A model generated the notes under the pieces. That model was given only the letters and a program-made list of their open reading frames with translations. It ran no database searches and was not told where the DNA came from. Position numbers and translations under genes: made by a program. Of a stretch of DNA of 64,000 nucleotides, positions 7,433 to 33,609 are shown one piece after another. The stretch is from positions 1 to 64,000 of the forward strand of contig PLCA01000008.1 in assembly GCA_003134685.1 (NCBI GenBank). Direction: 5' to 3'. Every line of letters starts with the position of its first letter. The stretch's first letter is position 1. The DNA is from Gemmatimonadota bacterium. GTDB taxonomy: Bacteria; Gemmatimonadota; Gemmatimonadetes; Gemmatimonadales; Gemmatimonadaceae.

Positions 7433-10285
7433 TCAGCCCTCGTCGAGAACCTTCCTCACGGTTTGCAGCAGGGCTTCAGAAGTGAAGGGCTTTTGAAGAA
7501 AACTCTTCGAGGGCTCGATGAATCCCCGTCTGATGATGTCGTCGTCGGTGTAACCCGACATATAGAGCGACTTCATTCTCGGGCGAATTCCCGCCAGGCG
7601 CTCCACCAGGCCCCGGCCATTCATGCCGGGCATCACGATGTCTGTGAGCACCAGATCGATTATGCCTACCTCCTTCGTCGCGATGTCCATTGCCTCGCGT
7701 CCGTGCTGCGCCGACAGGACTCGGTAACCCTGTTTCTCCAGAATCCGCGACGTTAATCCGCGCACTGCCTCTTCGTCTTCGACGACCAGAATCGTCTCGG
7801 ATCCCCGTGACGCTTCCTTCGTGGCGGGCTTGTATTCGCCTGGCTGGAAGGCCGTGGCGGCGCTGACCTCCGGAAAATAGAGCTTGAGCGAGGTTCCATG
7901 CCCCGGCTCGCTGTAGATCCAGACGTAGCCGCCCGATTGCTTGACGATTCCATACACAGTTGCCAGGCCAAGGCCCGTCCCCTTGCCGGCTTCCTTTGTC
8001 GTGAAGAATGGATCGAACGCGTGCTCCCGCGTGTCGACGCTCATTCCGACGCCCGTGTCTCCCACCGCGAGCATCACGTAGCGTCCAGGCATGACCGGCG
8101 CGTGCTCGCTGGTGTAAGTCTCGTCCAGCTCGACGTTCCGGGTCTCGATGCTTATCGTGCCGCCCTGCGGCATCGCGTCGCGCGCGTTCACGACCAGATT
8201 GACGAGGATCTGCTCGAGCTGGCCCGGGTCGGCGACGACGTAGCCACGCGCGGCGCAGGCCGAGGCGATCGTGATGTCCTCGCCGATGAGACGTCGCAGC
8301 ATGGGCTCGACGCTCGCGACCACGCTGTTCATGTCTAGCACTCGGGGCTGGAGAATCTGCTTGCGGCTGAACGCCAGCAGCTGCCTGGTGAGTGTGGATG
8401 CCCGCTCCGCCGCGCTTCTGATCTGTTTCACGTCCTCGGCGCGCGGATCCGTCGGGTCGAATCCCTCCATTATGATCTCGGTGTTGAGTCTGATCACCGT
8501 CAGGAGATTGTTGAAATCGTGAGCGATTCCTCCGGCCAGTCGACCGACGGCATCCATCTTCTGCGACTGGCGGAATTGCTCCTCGAGGTTGCGACGCTCG
8601 GTCAGATCGATCGAGACGCGCACGTACCCGAGCACGGTTCCGCGTTCGTCGCGGACAGGAGCGGTCGTGAGTAGAGCCGGGAACGCCTTGCCCGATTTTC
8701 CCTGCACCAGATACTCGCCTGTCCAGCTCTCTCCGGCTGCGCCGCGCTGACCGATCTCTCCGCCGTGATCGCGAAGAAAGGGCGATGGCGTCAACTCCTG
8801 AATCGGCTTTCCAACGGCCTCCTCGGCGGCCCACCCGTAGAGGTTCTCCGCGAAGGCGTTCCAGAAGATCACGATCCCCTCGGGATCCGTGGCCACGACT
8901 GCCTGCTGTACGGCGTTGAGCAGTTGCGCCTGGAACCTGATCGCCGCCTCGGAACGGGAGCGCTCGGTTACATCCGTCATCGCGCCGATGACGCGGATCG
9001 CCGTGCCGGTGCTGTCGCGCGCGACGTGGCCGCGATCCATCACGTTGGCGTAGGTCCCGTCGGCGCGGCGGTAGCGGTACGAATCGCTCCAGTTCGTTCC
9101 ACCGTGATCAAGTATTCCGTGAATTCCGGAGGTGACCCGATCGCGATCTTCCGGATGGATGTGATCGTACCACCACTTGATCTCCGGAAAGATCTTGTTC
9201 TGCTGGTGCCCGAACACGTGTTCGACGGAATCATTCCAGACGAGAGCGTTCGTCTTGATGTCCCAGTCCCAGATGACGTCGTTCGTAGCTCTTGCCACAA
9301 AGCGAAAGCGCTCGTCGGTCGTACGCACGGCGCGCTCGGCCTTTCGCTGGTCGGTCACGTCGACCACGATCGCGACGGCGGCTACGACATTGCCGTCAGC
9401 ATCGTGCACGGGAGCGGAGCTCATGCGGATGTAGCCATCTGAGCCATCGCCGCGGAGAATGCGGATTTCTTCGCCACGCACGCTCTCCCCTCTGAGTACA
9501 GTGCGCGCCAGCGGCCACTCGAGGGCGGCGAGCGGAGTGCCGCTGTCGCGAAACCCGACCCATTCGTTGTAGCTGTGCAGGTCGGGCGAGGGCGTGAACG
9601 ACGTCTGAAAGATCTCCGTCATCTGGGCGTTCACCGAAACGAGCCGCCCCGACGGCACTTCCGCCACGACGACGCCGACCGGCATTTGCTGCTGGACCGC
9701 GTGCGAGAGAGTTCGCTCGGCGATGAGGCGGAGCTGCGTGTCGTGCACCGCGCGCGCGGCAATGCGGCGCTGAATCTCGGACATGACCGCGGTGGAGAGT
9801 GCTGTCAACACACCGATGTCGCGCTCGCTCCAGTCGCGTGGTTTTTCATCGAATGCGCACAGAGCGCCGAGCACGTGACCGTCTTCGGTGATGAGCGGGA
9901 TACCCGCATAAGCCGTGACTTTGGCTCCGCTGTCAGCGAAGACGGGGTCGTTCCGCGCATCAGCCATCACGAGCGGCATCCCCGTCCCGACGACGTCCTG
10001 GCAGAACGATGCGTCGAGCGGATTCCAGCCAGCCGAAGGTGAACCGCCGTTACCGGCCACGCTCTTGAAGTACTGGCGTTTGGCGTCGACGAGCGAGATC
10101 AGAACGGTGGAAACGTCGAGGACTTGCGCCGCGAGGCGCGTGAAGACGTCCAGGCGGTCGTCAGCGGCCGTCTCGAGAAGTCCCGTATTGTGGAGAGCAG
10201 CGAGCCTGGCGGGGCTCGTCAATGCCTGATGGTTGGGCAAGTGGGACTGTAGAGATGAGAAATCGGACAACTGGAGCAGCAGCAC
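7433..10285 (-). CDS. GAF/PAS hybrid histidine kinase with receiver domain
   Basis: This 950-residue soluble hybrid sensor kinase has a GAF domain at about residues 25-175. Three PAS regions follow (about 195-315, 325-445, 450-575). The DHp domain has His589 in GGIAHDFNNLLTVI, and the HATPase has its N, G1 and G2 boxes (LVVNARDAMP, VGDTGVGMS, GTGLGLATV). A C-terminal receiver at 831-950 has Asp882 in LTDIVMPG. The start is GTG at 10285. No membrane segment is visible, so the signals are likely cytoplasmic. Its DHp and receiver closely resemble those of the ATPase-less proteins encoded at 28.5-30.5 kb. Confidence 0.94.
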   Translation of the reverse strand: MLLLQLSDFSSLQSHLPNHQALTSPARLAALHNTGLLETAADDRLDVFTRLAAQVLDVSTVLISLVDAKRQYFKSVAGNGGSPSAGWNPLDASFCQDVVGTGMPLVMADARNDPVFADSGAKVTAYAGIPLITEDGHVLGALCAFDEKPRDWSERDIGVLTALSTAVMSEIQRRIAARAVHDTQLRLIAERTLSHAVQQQMPVGVVVAEVPSGRLVSVNAQMTEIFQTSFTPSPDLHSYNEWVGFRDSGTPLAALEWPLARTVLRGESVRGEEIRILRGDGSDGYIRMSSAPVHDADGNVVAAVAIVVDVTDQRKAERAVRTTDERFRFVARATNDVIWDWDIKTNALVWNDSVEHVFGHQQNKIFPEIKWWYDHIHPEDRDRVTSGIHGILDHGGTNWSDSYRYRRADGTYANVMDRGHVARDSTGTAIRVIGAMTDVTERSRSEAAIRFQAQLLNAVQQAVVATDPEGIVIFWNAFAENLYGWAAEEAVGKPIQELTPSPFLRDHGGEIGQRGAAGESWTGEYLVQGKSGKAFPALLTTAPVRDERGTVLGYVRVSIDLTERRNLEEQFRQSQKMDAVGRLAGGIAHDFNNLLTVIRLNTEIIMEGFDPTDPRAEDVKQIRSAAERASTLTRQLLAFSRKQILQPRVLDMNSVVASVEPMLRRLIGEDITIASACAARGYVVADPGQLEQILVNLVVNARDAMPQGGTISIETRNVELDETYTSEHAPVMPGRYVMLAVGDTGVGMSVDTREHAFDPFFTTKEAGKGTGLGLATVYGIVKQSGGYVWIYSEPGHGTSLKLYFPEVSAATAFQPGEYKPATKEASRGSETILVVEDEEAVRGLTSRILEKQGYRVLSAQHGREAMDIATKEVGIIDLVLTDIVMPGMNGRGLVERLAGIRPRMKSLYMSGYTDDDIIRRGFIEPSKSFLQKPFTSEALLQTVRKVLDEG

Positions 10286-28095: not shown

Positions 28096-28482
28096 ATGCC
28101 AATGATGAAAGACTTCAAGGATTTCCTGCTGAAGCAGAACGTCGTGGCGCTGGCGATAGCCGTGGTGGTGGGTACGGCGCTCAACACCCTGGTGAAAGCG
28201 ATCGTCGATGACTTCATCATGCCGATCGTCGTCGCAATCGGCCCCGGTGGCGATTGGCAGAAGGCGACATGGAGCGTCGGCCCGGTGAAGTTCGGCGTCG
28301 GAGACTTCGCCGCCGCCGTGATCAATTTCCTGATAATCGGCCTCGTCGCCTGGCGAATCTCGAAGATCTTCATCAAGCCGGCGGCGGAAGCAGCGAAGCG
28401 GAATTGCCCGTTCTGCCGAATGTCGATCGACGCGGCCGCCACACGCTGTCCGAATTGTACCAGCCAATTGGCGCAGGCCTGA
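28096..28482 (+). CDS. mscL: Large-conductance mechanosensitive channel with C-terminal zinc ribbon
   Basis: The 128-residue protein opens with KDFLLKQNVVALAIAVVVG, the amphipathic N-terminus and first membrane helix of MscL. A second membrane helix follows (VINFLIIGLVAWRISKIF). The ordinary cytoplasmic helical bundle is replaced by a short segment with CPFC at 104-107 and CPNC at 118-121, a four-Cys zinc ribbon. A channel that releases solutes under membrane tension is expected. The ribbon is an uncommon addition. ATG 28105 is an alternative start. Confidence 0.9.
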   Translation: MPMMKDFKDFLLKQNVVALAIAVVVGTALNTLVKAIVDDFIMPIVVAIGPGGDWQKATWSVGPVKFGVGDFAAAVINFLIIGLVAWRISKIFIKPAAEAAKRNCPFCRMSIDAAATRCPNCTSQLAQA

Positions 28483-28525: not shown

Positions 28526-29368
28526 CTACTTCACGTAGCCGAGCGCCGCGCGGACCTCGGAAAAAAGCGTCTCACCCGTGAAGGGCTTCTGGAGGTAGGG
28601 GGTGCGATTAGCGCTTCCCTTGTCCGGGAAGATCTCTTCCTTCGGATAACCCGACATGAACAGGACGCGGATTCCGGGACTCAGCTCCAGGAGCTCCTCG
28701 ACCATGCCGCGTCCGCCCAGGTTCGGCATCGCCACATCGGTGAGGACGAGATCGATCTCGCCCACGTGAGCCGCGGCGACACGCAGGGCGATAGCGCCGT
28801 CCGAGGCCTCGAAGACACGATAACCTTTCTGGGACAGGATTCTTTTCGTGAGTGTCCTTACGGCGGCTTCGTCTTCGACCAGGAGAATCGTCTCGGCCGT
28901 GCGGGTCGACTTATCGGGGCTGGGTGCTGACGATTTTCCCGGCGTGGAGGCCGATTTTTTCTTCAGGACCGATTCGGCCAGATTCGCATCGAACGGCTCG
29001 AGCCGCGATGACGCCAGCAACTGCCGCGCCAGAATCGATGCGCGCCTCGATGCCCTTTGGATCTCGGCGAGCTCCTGTGCGCTGGCTGGGTTATCGCCGG
29101 CGGTATCGAGGAGGAACTCAGTGTTGATTTGAATTACGGTGAGGAGGTTATTGAGCTCGTGTGCGACAAAGCTGGCCGTCTTGTTCGCCTCTTCGAGGTC
29201 GTGGGTTCGTACGGCAAGATCGATCGCCGCCTCCTGTTGTTTTTGCTTTCCTGAGCCGCTCGCGCTTTTTTTCAGACAGTGGTCCTCATGCCGGTTGGGG
29301 CCGCAACTAGCCGCCGAGGGTTGGAAAACTAATGCATCGAGGCGAATTACAGTCGAGGTCCGGGCCAC
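28526..29368 (-). CDS. DHp-receiver signalling protein lacking an ATPase domain
   Basis: The frame encodes 280 residues from GTG 29368. The first 32 residues look non-coding. A CTG at 29275, eight bases after GAGGA, is a plausible rare start. The DHp helix has His70 in FVAHELNNLLTVI and continues to about residue 125. A Lys/Ser-rich linker (about 130-155) stands where a HATPase domain would be. A complete receiver follows with Asp211 in LTDVAMP and the KPFTGETL end. It resembles a hybrid kinase with the catalytic domain removed, so it cannot autophosphorylate alone. It is divergent from a gene with the same defect. Confidence 0.8.
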   Translation of the reverse strand: MARTSTVIRLDALVFQPSAASCGPNRHEDHCLKKSASGSGKQKQQEAAIDLAVRTHDLEEANKTASFVAHELNNLLTVIQINTEFLLDTAGDNPASAQELAEIQRASRRASILARQLLASSRLEPFDANLAESVLKKKSASTPGKSSAPSPDKSTRTAETILLVEDEAAVRTLTKRILSQKGYRVFEASDGAIALRVAAAHVGEIDLVLTDVAMPNLGGRGMVEELLELSPGIRVLFMSGYPKEEIFPDKGSANRTPYLQKPFTGETLFSEVRAALGYVK

Positions 29369-29418
29369 GGATTCGTTGCAGACGCTTGTTTAGTGCGGCA
29401 GTATTACACAGATGACAA

Positions 29419-30474
29419 ATGTCGAGCGGGCCAACGACGCCTGACTATCGGACGATCATCGAATCGGCCCCTGAGGCGATCGTCGTCTACACGCCGGAGA
29501 AGTTTCTCTTCCTCAACAGCTTCGCAGCCGACCAGCTCGGCTCTGATCCGGCGTCACTTGTCGGGCGTTCGATCATGGAGTTTGTGCATCCCGATTCAGC
29601 TCCCGTAGTCATCGAACGGATCCGCAATGTCCTCAAGAGCGGTGTGGGCGGAGGACCGCTGGAAGTGCGCTTCGTCTCTCTGGCCGGTACCGTGATCCCC
29701 GCCGAGATCGTTTCGGTCCCAATCACTTTCGAAGGGCAGCAGGCGTTTCTCGGACTGATACGCGATATCAGCAATCGCGCGGAAATGGAGCGCGCTCTGC
29801 GGGAGAGCGAGGAGAAGTTCGGAAATGCGTTCCGTCATTCTCCCCACGGAATGGGGTTCGTCGGTCGGGACGGAAGCTGGCTCAAGGCAAACCGCGCGCT
29901 CTGTGAGATGCTCGGCTATTCGGAGGAAGAATTGCTTCAGCGTCGCGTTTCCGACATCACGCATCCGGATGATGTCAGCGCGGATGTGGAGCAGCTGAAC
30001 CTGCTCATGTCCGGCGAGATCGCCAGCTACCACCTGACCAAGCGCTATTATCGAAAGGATGGGCGCGTGATCTGGGCTTCGCTCGCAGTAGCCCCGGTGC
30101 ACAACGCAGAAGGCGTTCCGATCTACTTCATCGGCCAGGTTCAGGACATAACGCTCGAGCGTGAGAGGGAGGAGCAAAGGGCGCACGGCGAGCGCCTGGC
30201 TGGCATAACGGAGACGACAATCGCGGTTGCCCACGAAATGAACAATGAGCTGACCGTGCTGATGATGAATGCCGAACTTCTGGCGGACAAGCCGTCGCCG
30301 GAGGAGATACCCGAAATCGCCGCCGAGATTCTCTCCGCGGCGCGCAGCATCGCCGAGACGGTGCAGCGTCTCCGCAAACTGGGGGTTCCCGAGTCAGTTG
30401 AATATCTGGGCGAGGACAAAATGCTCGATTTGTCGCCTAAGCCGGCCAGGAAGCCCTTGAAGAGGGGCAAATGA
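29419..30474 (+). CDS. PAS-PAS-DHp signalling protein lacking an ATPase domain
   Basis: The 351-residue protein has two PAS domains (about residues 8-120 and 128-250). A DHp-like segment follows with His272 in IAVAHEMNNELTVLMMN, and the protein ends after about 75 further residues in a basic tail (KPARKPLKRGK). There are no N, G1 or G2 ATP-binding boxes. The PAS sensors and phosphoacceptor are kept without a catalytic domain. The product may dimerise with, or accept phosphate from, another kinase; this is inference. It is divergent from the DHp-receiver gene, with only 50 bases between the annotated starts. Confidence 0.8.
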   Translation: MSSGPTTPDYRTIIESAPEAIVVYTPEKFLFLNSFAADQLGSDPASLVGRSIMEFVHPDSAPVVIERIRNVLKSGVGGGPLEVRFVSLAGTVIPAEIVSVPITFEGQQAFLGLIRDISNRAEMERALRESEEKFGNAFRHSPHGMGFVGRDGSWLKANRALCEMLGYSEEELLQRRVSDITHPDDVSADVEQLNLLMSGEIASYHLTKRYYRKDGRVIWASLAVAPVHNAEGVPIYFIGQVQDITLEREREEQRAHGERLAGITETTIAVAHEMNNELTVLMMNAELLADKPSPEEIPEIAAEILSAARSIAETVQRLRKLGVPESVEYLGEDKMLDLSPKPARKPLKRGK

Positions 30475-30540: not shown

Positions 30541-33500
30541 ATGAGGTTTGTACATTTGGCTCCGATGCCAAGGCCTGATGAAGCGCCATTGGTCGGCAGG
30601 ACCGCCGAGCTCGCTTTCCTGTCAAAGACGCTCGATGAAGCCGGAAGGGGCGCTGGTCGCTCCGTTTTCGTCGTTGGCGAGGGCGGAATCGGGAAGACGC
30701 GCCTGGCAGCCGCCGCTGCCGACAAGGCCGCAAAGCGGGGCTGGAGCGTGGCGGTGGGACGTTCGTATCCGGTGGAAACCGGAGTTCCGTATGCGCTCTT
30801 CTCCGATGCACTTCTGCCGCTCGTCCGGGCGCTGGAGCCCACCACGCTTTCCGTCCTCACTCGAGGCGGGGCAGCCGAGCTAGGGTATCTGTTTCCAAAC
30901 CTGGCGGGACCCTCGGACCGCGAACGGGCGTCGGCCGGCGCCGATCCGTCCGAGATCAAGGCACGCCTCCTTTGGAACTTCACTCAGTTCCTCGGCCGGC
31001 TCTCGGCCAAGCAGCCTCTCTTCATTGTGCTCGAGAATCTTCAGTGGGCTGATGCATCGTCGCTCGAGTTGCTGCACTTCGTAGCACGGCACATCGAGAA
31101 CCAGAAAATAATTCTGCTCGGTACATACAACGAGACCGAGCGAGACTCCAACGCGATCTTGCGCAGCACGGAACAGTCGCTGCTGGGCCTCGGATCGCTC
31201 ACTGTGCACAAGCTCCGTCCCCTCGAGCAACTGGACGTTGAGGAAATAGTCGAGCGGATGTTCGGTGTTGAGAAGGCCGCGACCCGGCATTTCTCACCGA
31301 TGCTGTACGACTGGACCCGGGGCAATCCGTTTTTCGTCGAAGAGACGCTCAAGTCGCTGGTGGATTCGGGTGCGCTGAGCCAGAAGGACGGCCGTTGGAC
31401 GGGGTGGGAAATGCAGACTCTTCACCTGCCGTCCACAATCCGCGATGTCGTTCAGGCGAGAGTCGACCGGTTGTCACCAAACGCACGAACCCTGGCGAAC
31501 CTCGCGGCCGTCATCGGGACCCGTGCCGAGCACAATACGCTGGCCAGCGTTTCCGGCTTGCCAGAGACGGAGATGATCGCTGCCGTCGAAGAGCTGCTTG
31601 CTCAGCGAGTGCTGGCGGAAACCGGAAGCATTGATGCGATCAATGTCGATGCGATCCACTATGATTTTACCCATCCGCTGCTCCAGCAGGTGATTTACTC
31701 GGAGCTGGGGCAGGCACGCGCGCGCCTACTGCACGCGACGATCGCCGAAGCCCTCGAGAGCCTCTACGGCGACGCCGCGCTCGACCATGCCGACGAGCTG
31801 GCCCTCCACTACGCCCGTGCCCATTCGCAGTCGCTGGCGCGAAAGGCCGTGAGATACCTCTACGCCGCTGGACGCGGCGCTATCGAGAAGTACGCCAATC
31901 GAGAGGCGGCGAACTATCTGGCGGCGGCCCTGGAGCATTTGGACAAGGATCCCACGATCATCGATGCGCCGCGCGAGAAGATTCTCACGACTCTCGCGCG
32001 CACGCGGCAGCGATTGGGCGAGTATGATGCGGCGATGCAGCTATGGGCTAGGGCGCGCGAGGGTGCCGCGGCACGGGGGGAGAGAGGGGCGCTCGCCGAC
32101 ATCGACCACCGTATGGGACTCGCGTGCTACTGGAGCGGGAGATACGCCGACGCCCTGGCGCACTACGAAGCCGGACTTCAAGCGGCGTCTGCGTTCAGCG
32201 ACCGCTCGACTACGGTGAGGCTGCGTCTTGCCAAAGGAATCGCTCTCCAGGACCTGGGGCGAGTGCTGGAAGCCCAGGCCGAAGTCGAGGCTGCGCTCGC
32301 TTCGGCGGCGGAAGGTGGCATCCGGAACGACGCTCTTCTTTCACGTGCGCACAGAGCGCTTCTTCTTCTCTACGTGTGGGCAGGCCCGCTTGATCTCGCG
32401 CGGGAGCACGGGATGAAGGCGATCGCACACGCTGAAGCCGCTGGTCAGCGCATGCTGGAGTGGACGGCGCATTGGGGGATGGCGCTGCTCGAAGGAGTTT
32501 GCGGAGATGCCCAGGCTTTTCTGAAGCATCTCGCCGCCAGCGATCGACTGGCGGAGCAAATGCATTCGCTGCTTCTGCCGCTCTGGTCCGCCGAGCTTTT
32601 TGTGCAATACGCTTCGAGCGTCGGCGACTGGGATGCGGCGCTCGAAACCGCGGAGCGCACCATCAGTCTCGCCAAGAGTCTCAACCAGCGCATGCTTCTG
32701 CCGCGCCTCTACGTGTGGTCTGGTCTCATTTATCTCTGGCGGGGCTCCGACCACAAGGCGAAAGAGTACTTCGATGAAGCGTGGAAGCTCGCGGGTGCCG
32801 AGAAAGCCGGATCATTGGCGGGCGCGGGTGATCGCGCGCTCGACGTGCCTTCGATCGTTCCGGCGCATCTCGGCATGGCGTCGTACTATCTGGCGAAAGG
32901 TCACCCAAAGGAGGCAGTTCGCATCGGTGAGGCGGGACTCGCGATCGCAGATCGAACCGGATACATCGTGTGGGCCCTTCAATGGCTCCTGCCGACGGTG
33001 GGGGAAGCGGCGCTCTTCGCTCGCGACTTCGATAGAGCCGCCAAGCATTCGGCGCGCATGAGACGCGATGCCGGCCGTTTTCATCACCGCCTGGGACTTG
33101 CTTACGCGGATGGGTGCGATGGCCTGCTCGCAAGGTTCCGAGATGGCGACCCGGCACGCGCGATCGAGCTATTGCAATCGTCCGTCGAGCAGCTCGAAGC
33201 GATTCCATTTCCTCCGCAAGCAGCCAAAATCAGGCGGCGGCTCGCCGGCGCTTTGGTCGAGGTGGGAGACCGGGAGGGTGGAATGCGCGAGCTCCGCAAG
33301 GCGCACGATGTGTTCGTACGCATCGGCGCGACGGTCGAGCTCGATGGAACGCGCGAGGAAATGCGAGAGCTCGGAGTCAGGCCGCCGCCCAAGTCGGCGA
33401 CGAGCGGCGCGGCCGGATTGACCGGCCGGGAGATGGAGATCGCCCGGATGGTCGCAACCCGTAAGTCCAACAAGGAAATTGGCGGCGCGCTTCAGATTTC

Positions 33501-33609
33501 GGCGCGCACGGTGAGCACCCACCTCTCGAACATTTTTCTCAAGCTCAGCGTCGGATCGAGAGGCGAGCTGGCTGACTTCGTCCGTCAGAACGGACTGCTC
33601 GAGGGATAG
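30541..33609 (+). CDS. Large ATP-binding LuxR-family (LAL) transcriptional regulator
   Basis: The 1022-residue protein has an STAND/AAA ATPase with Walker A GEGGIGKTR at about residues 46-54 and a Walker B-like segment LFIVLENLQWAD. A long TPR-like helical middle follows (AAGRGAIEKYANREAANYL and on). The C-terminal LuxR HTH covers about 955-1022 (LTGREMEIARMVATRKSNKE, then ISARTVSTHLSNIF). These MalT-like regulators switch on ligand and ATP binding. ATG 30565 is an alternative start. A decarboxylase gene begins 19 bases downstream and may be a target or co-transcribed. Confidence 0.92.
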   Translation: MRFVHLAPMPRPDEAPLVGRTAELAFLSKTLDEAGRGAGRSVFVVGEGGIGKTRLAAAAADKAAKRGWSVAVGRSYPVETGVPYALFSDALLPLVRALEPTTLSVLTRGGAAELGYLFPNLAGPSDRERASAGADPSEIKARLLWNFTQFLGRLSAKQPLFIVLENLQWADASSLELLHFVARHIENQKIILLGTYNETERDSNAILRSTEQSLLGLGSLTVHKLRPLEQLDVEEIVERMFGVEKAATRHFSPMLYDWTRGNPFFVEETLKSLVDSGALSQKDGRWTGWEMQTLHLPSTIRDVVQARVDRLSPNARTLANLAAVIGTRAEHNTLASVSGLPETEMIAAVEELLAQRVLAETGSIDAINVDAIHYDFTHPLLQQVIYSELGQARARLLHATIAEALESLYGDAALDHADELALHYARAHSQSLARKAVRYLYAAGRGAIEKYANREAANYLAAALEHLDKDPTIIDAPREKILTTLARTRQRLGEYDAAMQLWARAREGAAARGERGALADIDHRMGLACYWSGRYADALAHYEAGLQAASAFSDRSTTVRLRLAKGIALQDLGRVLEAQAEVEAALASAAEGGIRNDALLSRAHRALLLLYVWAGPLDLAREHGMKAIAHAEAAGQRMLEWTAHWGMALLEGVCGDAQAFLKHLAASDRLAEQMHSLLLPLWSAELFVQYASSVGDWDAALETAERTISLAKSLNQRMLLPRLYVWSGLIYLWRGSDHKAKEYFDEAWKLAGAEKAGSLAGAGDRALDVPSIVPAHLGMASYYLAKGHPKEAVRIGEAGLAIADRTGYIVWALQWLLPTVGEAALFARDFDRAAKHSARMRRDAGRFHHRLGLAYADGCDGLLARFRDGDPARAIELLQSSVEQLEAIPFPPQAAKIRRRLAGALVEVGDREGGMRELRKAHDVFVRIGATVELDGTREEMRELGVRPPPKSATSGAAGLTGREMEIARMVATRKSNKEIGGALQISARTVSTHLSNIFLKLSVGSRGELADFVRQNGLLEG

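Follow-up and report, generated by a model that had tools for sequence, protein, structure and literature searches.

Divergent HisKA genes without an ATPase domain in Gemmatimonadaceae and a related DHp-tail family in the Gemmatimonadota

The window analysed, the first 64,000 nucleotides of contig PLCA01000008.1 from a Gemmatimonadaceae genome (GCA_003134685.1), contains two divergent genes, P1 and P2, coding for HisKA proteins that keep the phospho-acceptor histidine of the DHp hairpin and have no ATPase (CA) domain (Table 1). Both are conserved at the same locus in related genomes and are under purifying selection, and P2 belongs to a family of similar proteins found across the phylum. By analogy with Spo0B and ChpT, P1 and P2 may be DHp phosphotransfer and phosphatase modules supplied by kinases encoded elsewhere, a reading to which we give a probability of roughly 0.6.

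Table 1 Features of the P1/P2 locus and of the hybrid kinase P3, in window positions (dN/dS values are approximate, dS being often >1)
Feature	Position	Strand	Remarks
P3, GAF-PAS-PAS-PAS-DHp-CA-REC hybrid kinase (CckA-like), candidate phosphodonor	7433..10285	-	950 aa
MscL-like channel, P1-side neighbour	28096..28482	+	named by eye; missing here in G005 and G008
P1, DHp-linker-receiver without ATPase domain	28526..29275	-	249 aa from conserved CTG (probable start)
P1 receiver domain (CckA-like)	28541..28894	-	phospho-acceptor Asp180 at 28736-28738
P1 Lys/Ser/Ala-rich linker, in place of CA domain	28901..29002	-	variable, mostly predicted disordered
P1 DHp helical hairpin (HisKA)	29003..29197	-	His39 at 29159-29161, motif AHELNN
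Intergenic region between divergent P1 (CTG) and P2 starts	29276..29418	.	143 bp
P2, PAS-PAS-DHp-tail without ATPase domain	29419..30474	+	351 aa
P2 PAS domain 1 (approximate bounds)	29443..29769	+	dN/dS 0.13
P2 PAS domain 2 (approximate bounds)	29806..30162	+	dN/dS 0.16
P2 DHp helical hairpin (HisKA)	30181..30378	+	His272 at 30232-30234, AHEMNN; dN/dS 0.10
P2 C-terminal signature YLGEDKMLDLS	30403..30435	+	Y, G, M and DL invariant among P2 orthologues
AAA_16-TPR-LuxR (GerE) regulator, neighbour	30541..33609	+	no receiver domain

The original prediction, made from the sequence, had described two open reading frames here that retain the DHp phospho-acceptor and have lost the ATPase domain. Both frames exist, and profile search, genome-wide search and structure prediction agree on the loss. 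Pfam recognised HisKA (36.9 bits, cut-off 26.9) and Response_reg (PF00072, 67.4 bits) in P1, and two PAS domains followed by HisKA (PF00512, 31.5 bits, above the same cut-off) in P2. The HMM search for HATPase_c that had been suggested as a check found none in either protein by Pfam, even with hits admitted at E<=1; hybrid kinase P3 of the same window, taken as control, gave 75.8 bits. Across the genome (3.63 Mb in 16 contigs) 56 copies of HATPase_c were detected, none of them between C16:13,343 and C16:37,180 on the contig that holds the window, so that the surroundings of P1 and P2 hold no displaced ATPase domain or fragment of one. Together with the conservation of the CA-less state in relatives, which removes the sequencing-error reading, this rules out an assembly error or frameshift concealing the domain. 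Set against the HisKA class of histidine kinases, P1 and P2 have the DHp with its phospho-acceptor histidine and lack the CA domain with its N, G1 and G2 boxes. Both show the combination of HisKA without HATPase that defines the non-enzymatic histidine kinase-like proteins, and P2 also fits the phosphotransfer proteins of P2CS (HisKA, no HATPase, no receiver), P1 carrying an additional receiver. The histidine, the glutamate next to it and an asparagine at +4 are invariant in P1, its paralogue P1b, P2 and the phylum family.

The same picture came from AlphaFold models, whose confidence was moderate. In P1 (mean pLDDT 68) a helical hairpin is joined to a CheY fold by a linker that is mostly disordered, and P2 (mean pLDDT 79) shows two PAS folds, the hairpin and a disordered tail; neither model has any alpha/beta domain beyond these CheY and PAS folds. 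In P2 a degenerate CA-like domain is absent as well, only the C-terminal tail lying beyond the DHp, with a basic stretch after the signature. The P1 receiver has the Response_reg fold, the acidic pocket, the phospho-acceptor Asp, the Thr/Ser and the Lys that characterise these domains (P2 has no receiver); it matches solved receivers, the one of CckA being among the nearest structures. D135/E136, D180 and S208 are invariant among orthologues, and K230 is found in seven of eight, with Arg in G017. Median pairwise dN/dS in P1 was 0.064 for the DHp, 0.062 for the receiver and 0.34 for the linker, approximate values given that dS is often >1.

The start of P1 was reconsidered. The frame reported before (28526-29368) begins further upstream, at a non-conserved GTG, which we rejected in favour of a CTG codon (window 29273-29275, minus strand). 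P1 probably extends over 28526-29275, with 249 residues, His39 and Asp180, since sequence conservation begins at this same CTG in all eight genomes with P1 and three of them (G014, G008 and G017) have no usable ATG, GTG or TTG ahead of the H-box. A Shine-Dalgarno-like sequence is found a few bases upstream of the CTG in most orthologues. The CTG start is likely rather than proven because CTG is a common leucine codon in a GC-rich genome such as this one. The residues given as phospho-acceptors, His70 and Asp211 in the former numbering of P1 and His272 in P2, were correctly assigned and are invariant among orthologues. An element resembling ATGCATTA(G/A) is located about 50 nt before the CTG, within the intergenic region, and recurs upstream of P1 in most relatives, among them L006, L007, L008 and L010, with diverged DNA around it.

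The relatives compared are metagenome-assembled Gemmatimonadaceae, largely from soil and permafrost by their record titles. Conservation of the divergent pair, which had been proposed as a check, was found in seven genomes, with both genes intact, CA-less and at the same locus. The gene order MFS, MscL, P1, P2 is kept in five of the seven; G005 and G008 have no MscL between MFS and P1. A LuxR/AAA gene follows P2 where contigs extend so far. G016 and G010 have P2 at a contig end and do not bear on P1; in G017, P1 is next to LuxR and P2 is absent. The more distant G001 and G004, of the same genus, have another gene upstream of LuxR. Judged from this distribution, the pair was most simply gained once in a sub-clade. 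The site seems prone to gene gain, since different genes stand upstream of LuxR/AAA: an erythromycin-esterase-like gene between P2 and LuxR in G009, and a cellulose-synthase-like glycosyltransferase gene in G005 and G010 (all named by eye). Genes of these two kinds lie upstream of LuxR/AAA in L038 (7885-9294), L061 (464-1774), L040 (8924-11269) and L044 (695-3034). In the pair-less G001 (L066 7510-8130) a short ORF with no relation to either P1 or P2 occupies the position of the pair, between MscL and LuxR.

P1 and P2 had been considered a sensor and phosphotransfer pair. Their joint conservation stands, and an obligate pairing is weakened by G017, with its P1 and no P2. Relatives of each protein are also found without the other, P1b beside a REC-HD-GYP gene and P2-type DHp proteins throughout the phylum. 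The LuxR-type neighbour was rejected as the output: its AAA_16-TPR-GerE product has no receiver, and in G009, G005 and G010 other genes intervene. The partner kinase proposed originally was P3. The P1 receiver is close to that of P3, as had been noticed (46% identity; 39% for the DHp), and the P3 receiver is the best own-genome match to it apart from P1b. Each of the ten genomes that have P1 or P2 carries a P3 orthologue, yet so does G004, in which the pair was not detected; the co-occurrence may simply reflect descent, and we do not accept P3 as donor on this ground. P3 is a reasonable candidate phosphodonor.

P1b (C12:70,207-71,322 in the same genome) has the architecture PAS-DHp-linker-REC and shares 53% identity with P1 in the part common to both. 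No HATPase_c was detected in it by domain scan, and its HisKA match (23.7 bits) is slightly under the Pfam cut-off of 26.9. It is present in nine genomes of the genus. In five of these its stop codon adjoins the start of a REC-HD-type gene or shares one base with it; such a gene follows P1b in two further genomes, with an uncertain start, and was not found in the other two. The own-genome copy abuts a gene that is REC-HD-GYP by domain scan (G000:C12:70207-72396; L001 5208-7397), which makes cyclic-di-GMP turnover a plausible output of P1b. The best-scoring models for P1 and P1b are of CckA type, consistent with descent from a CckA-like hybrid kinase that lost its CA domain; compared with the CckA hybrid kinases, a linker of about 34-54 residues replaces CA in both proteins. 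P1 belongs to this DHp-linker-REC group, separate from the DHp-tail family of P2.

That family, defined here by an HExxN DHp, then (V)EYxxGxxRM[LI]DL and a stop soon after, without CA, includes P2 and P2b; P1, having no tail, is not a member. The conserved tail had gone unmentioned in the original prediction. With a profile built on the DHp and tail motif (A4), matches at E <= 1e-9 were obtained in 156 of 395 Gemmatimonadota genomes. Counting those of the strongest 95 matches listed that reach profile position >=81, full-length members occur in at least 89 of the 395 sampled genomes, 82 of them outside the genus; in 67 of the 89, among the matches listed, the open frame has <=350 residues. P2 orthologues aside, the fetched members are mostly REC-DHp-tail, the commonest form. 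L154 shows the PAS-PAS architecture of P2 in another family of Gemmatimonadota, while L145, L147 and L151 carry predicted membrane segments and L146 a probable GAF-like region (these by eye). The stop comes 0-24 residues past the profile match in 29 of 30 distinct fetched members (from 33 rows, three being the same genes fetched twice), the exception (L112) having a second receiver. Scanned members have HisKA and lack HATPase_c. Among 21 divergent members no variation was seen in the H, the E that follows it, the N at +4 or the tail M, and very little in the tail Y, D and L. A further architecture within the genus, REC-DHp-tail-REC without ATPase domain, was found in G001 (L080 1063-2169). The own genome also has a P2-type DHp-tail gene (G000:C2:27203-27649; L002 7204-7650) that has lost its PAS part, with PAS-like sequence persisting upstream in another frame; relative to its relative in G002 this copy appears probably truncated, or else frameshifted.

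In P2, YLGEDKMLDLS is likely a remnant of the first strand after the DHp. GGDEALDLS and GGDEVIDLS stand at the position of the tail in two Gemmatimonadota hybrid kinases that come from a single genus and have a complete CA domain. The tail therefore resembles the junction of DHp and CA together with the first CA strand, as if retained when the remainder of the domain disappeared. That kinases in general carry the tail was rejected; profile matches in complete kinases mostly end short of it. With a profile of the family (A5), the 398 genomes of the Roseovarius phylum gave long frames only (all but one >500 residues, one of 375), the matches nearly always ending before the tail. In the phylum that includes a genome labelled Kiritimatiellota, 289 genomes gave one fairly short full-length candidate (G1015, 361 residues). 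The family thus appears almost unseen in these two other phyla, as judged from the best first-look candidates per genome at E <= 1e-10, where absence is no proof. The nearest solved structures match the DHp of the family and leave the tail uncovered, the closest PDB sequence being of LvrB type. A plasmid search with one family member gave no match, and no constant neighbour was seen in the four loci where simple gene calling recovered the gene.

How these proteins might work can be proposed from known systems. P1 and P2 would descend from PAS/hybrid histidine kinases that lost the CA domain wholly; they cannot use ATP or autophosphorylate. We infer that both would act as dimeric DHp phosphotransfer/phosphatase modules, Spo0B-, ChpT- or PhyT-like in function, complete kinases elsewhere making the phosphoryl groups and receiver domains bringing them to P1 and P2. 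In P1 phosphate may move between His39, the Asp180 of its own receiver and partner receivers, and in P2 between His272 and partner receivers, with the two PAS sensors in control; in either protein it would be passed on or hydrolysed. Of the split phosphorelay first imagined, this model retains the need for a kinase in trans, the proteins having the histidine and no kinase domain so that phosphate has to come from elsewhere; the obligate pair, the LuxR output and P3 as the partner were not sustained. Kinase-derived phosphotransferases have precedents in PhyT, Spo0B and ChpT (PMC5898713, PMC3433190), dimeric DHp relays between receivers whose function is the one suggested here. They keep a degenerate CA-like domain, however, and P1 and P2 have none, a difference that counts against the relay reading.

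In HisKA proteins the glutamate after the histidine is needed for kinase and not for phosphatase activity, phosphatase activity depends on the asparagine at +4, and NtrB or EnvZ reduced to the DHp is a phosphatase (PMC3510030). With all three residues invariant, it can be argued that the histidine is still phosphorylated and that dephosphorylation also matters, although by themselves these residues fail to separate a relay from trans-phosphorylation. It is unlikely, in our view, that the DHp of P1 or P2 forms heterodimers with a complete kinase such as P3, or binds its CA, and has its histidine phosphorylated in trans from ATP. The kinase-specific glutamate (PMC3510030) would suit such a split kinase, as would the likeness of P1 to P3 in both domains, the P3 orthologue in every genome with P1 or P2, and the precedents of CheA3, phosphorylated by CheA4, and of EnvZ, whose domains work when separated (PMC3591291). 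The presence of P3 in G004 weighs on the other side, and no stand-alone CA partner was recognised in the two short HATPase_c hits inspected among the 56 copies. One of them looks like an anti-sigma-type ATPase, beside anti-sigma-antagonist-like and SpoIIE-type-phosphatase-like genes (by eye), and the other resembles a kinase broken up by undetermined bases. Nor does the glutamate discriminate, because Spo0B and ChpT retain an acidic residue after the histidine without using ATP.

We find it quite improbable that the DHp only dephosphorylates receivers, the proteins being pure transmitter phosphatases or phosphate sinks, P2 under PAS control. The invariant asparagine and the sufficiency of the DHp alone in NtrB and EnvZ (PMC3510030) agree with this, RetS, though devoid of kinase activity, removes phosphate from the GacS receiver (PMC5992135), and a phosphatase role was proposed for such proteins by Galperin and colleagues (PMC5847659). 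But the glutamate is dispensable for phosphatase activity and the histidine is not strictly required (PMC3510030), and both are invariant in the 21 divergent members. Finally, the apparent damage to the C2 copy of the P2-type gene could suggest decaying, non-functional kinase remnants. Strong purifying selection in the functional domains (dN/dS near 0.06-0.1), conserved synteny, invariant active residues and the persistence of the P2 family across the phylum make this extremely improbable.

CA-less HisKA proteins are a class already described and hardly studied experimentally. Galperin and colleagues reported archaeal proteins with HisKA and no HATPase, for which phosphoacceptor, phosphotransfer or phosphatase roles were suggested, and stated that REC-PAS/GAF-HisKA proteins without HATPase were experimentally unstudied (PMC5847659). 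In P2CS, HisKA proteins that have neither HATPase nor receiver are classed as phosphotransfer proteins or "possible incomplete histidine kinase" (PMC2716373), and in a SMART survey 1556 of 42,417 HisKA proteins (3.66%) had no HATPase, 1.7% having HE/DxxN/T (PMC3591291). P2 shares PAS/GAF plus HisKA, the kept histidine and the missing HATPase with these non-enzymatic proteins (PMC5847659, PMC2716373), and the REC-PAS/GAF-HisKA ones resemble the Gemmatimonadota family; however, those were described from archaea and as isolated cases, whereas the family found here is bacterial, has a fixed signature at its C-terminus and persists phylum-wide. The split or bifunctional kinase candidates (PMC3591291) likewise have HisKA without HATPase and the HExxN motif, with a CA-only partner that was not recognised here. 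RetS, a kinase-dead DHp protein that carries receivers, is alike in drawing phosphate from another kinase and removing it (PMC5992135), but retains a degenerate HATPase domain, and the LvrB-type REC-DHp-CA kinases join a receiver to a HisKA DHp like the REC-DHp-tail proteins, but have the CA domain. A literature search in open papers for a named bacterial family of this kind gave the general class only, and we found no description there of the signature-bearing Gemmatimonadota family or of the P1/P2 and P1b/REC-HD-GYP arrangements.

It is possible, as a tentative extension, that the DHp-tail family, with its interchangeable REC, PAS-PAS, membrane and GAF-like inputs, provides dedicated phosphotransfer hubs of Gemmatimonadota in place of HPt, Spo0B or ChpT, the VEYxxGxxRM[LI]DLS motif, left over from the first strand of the ATPase domain, now serving as a docking element for partners. 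CA-less HisKA genes may be misannotated as histidine kinases, and the signature-bearing family, present in near-complete genomes across the phylum, offers concrete proteins with which phosphotransfer, trans-phosphorylation and phosphatase activity could be told apart.
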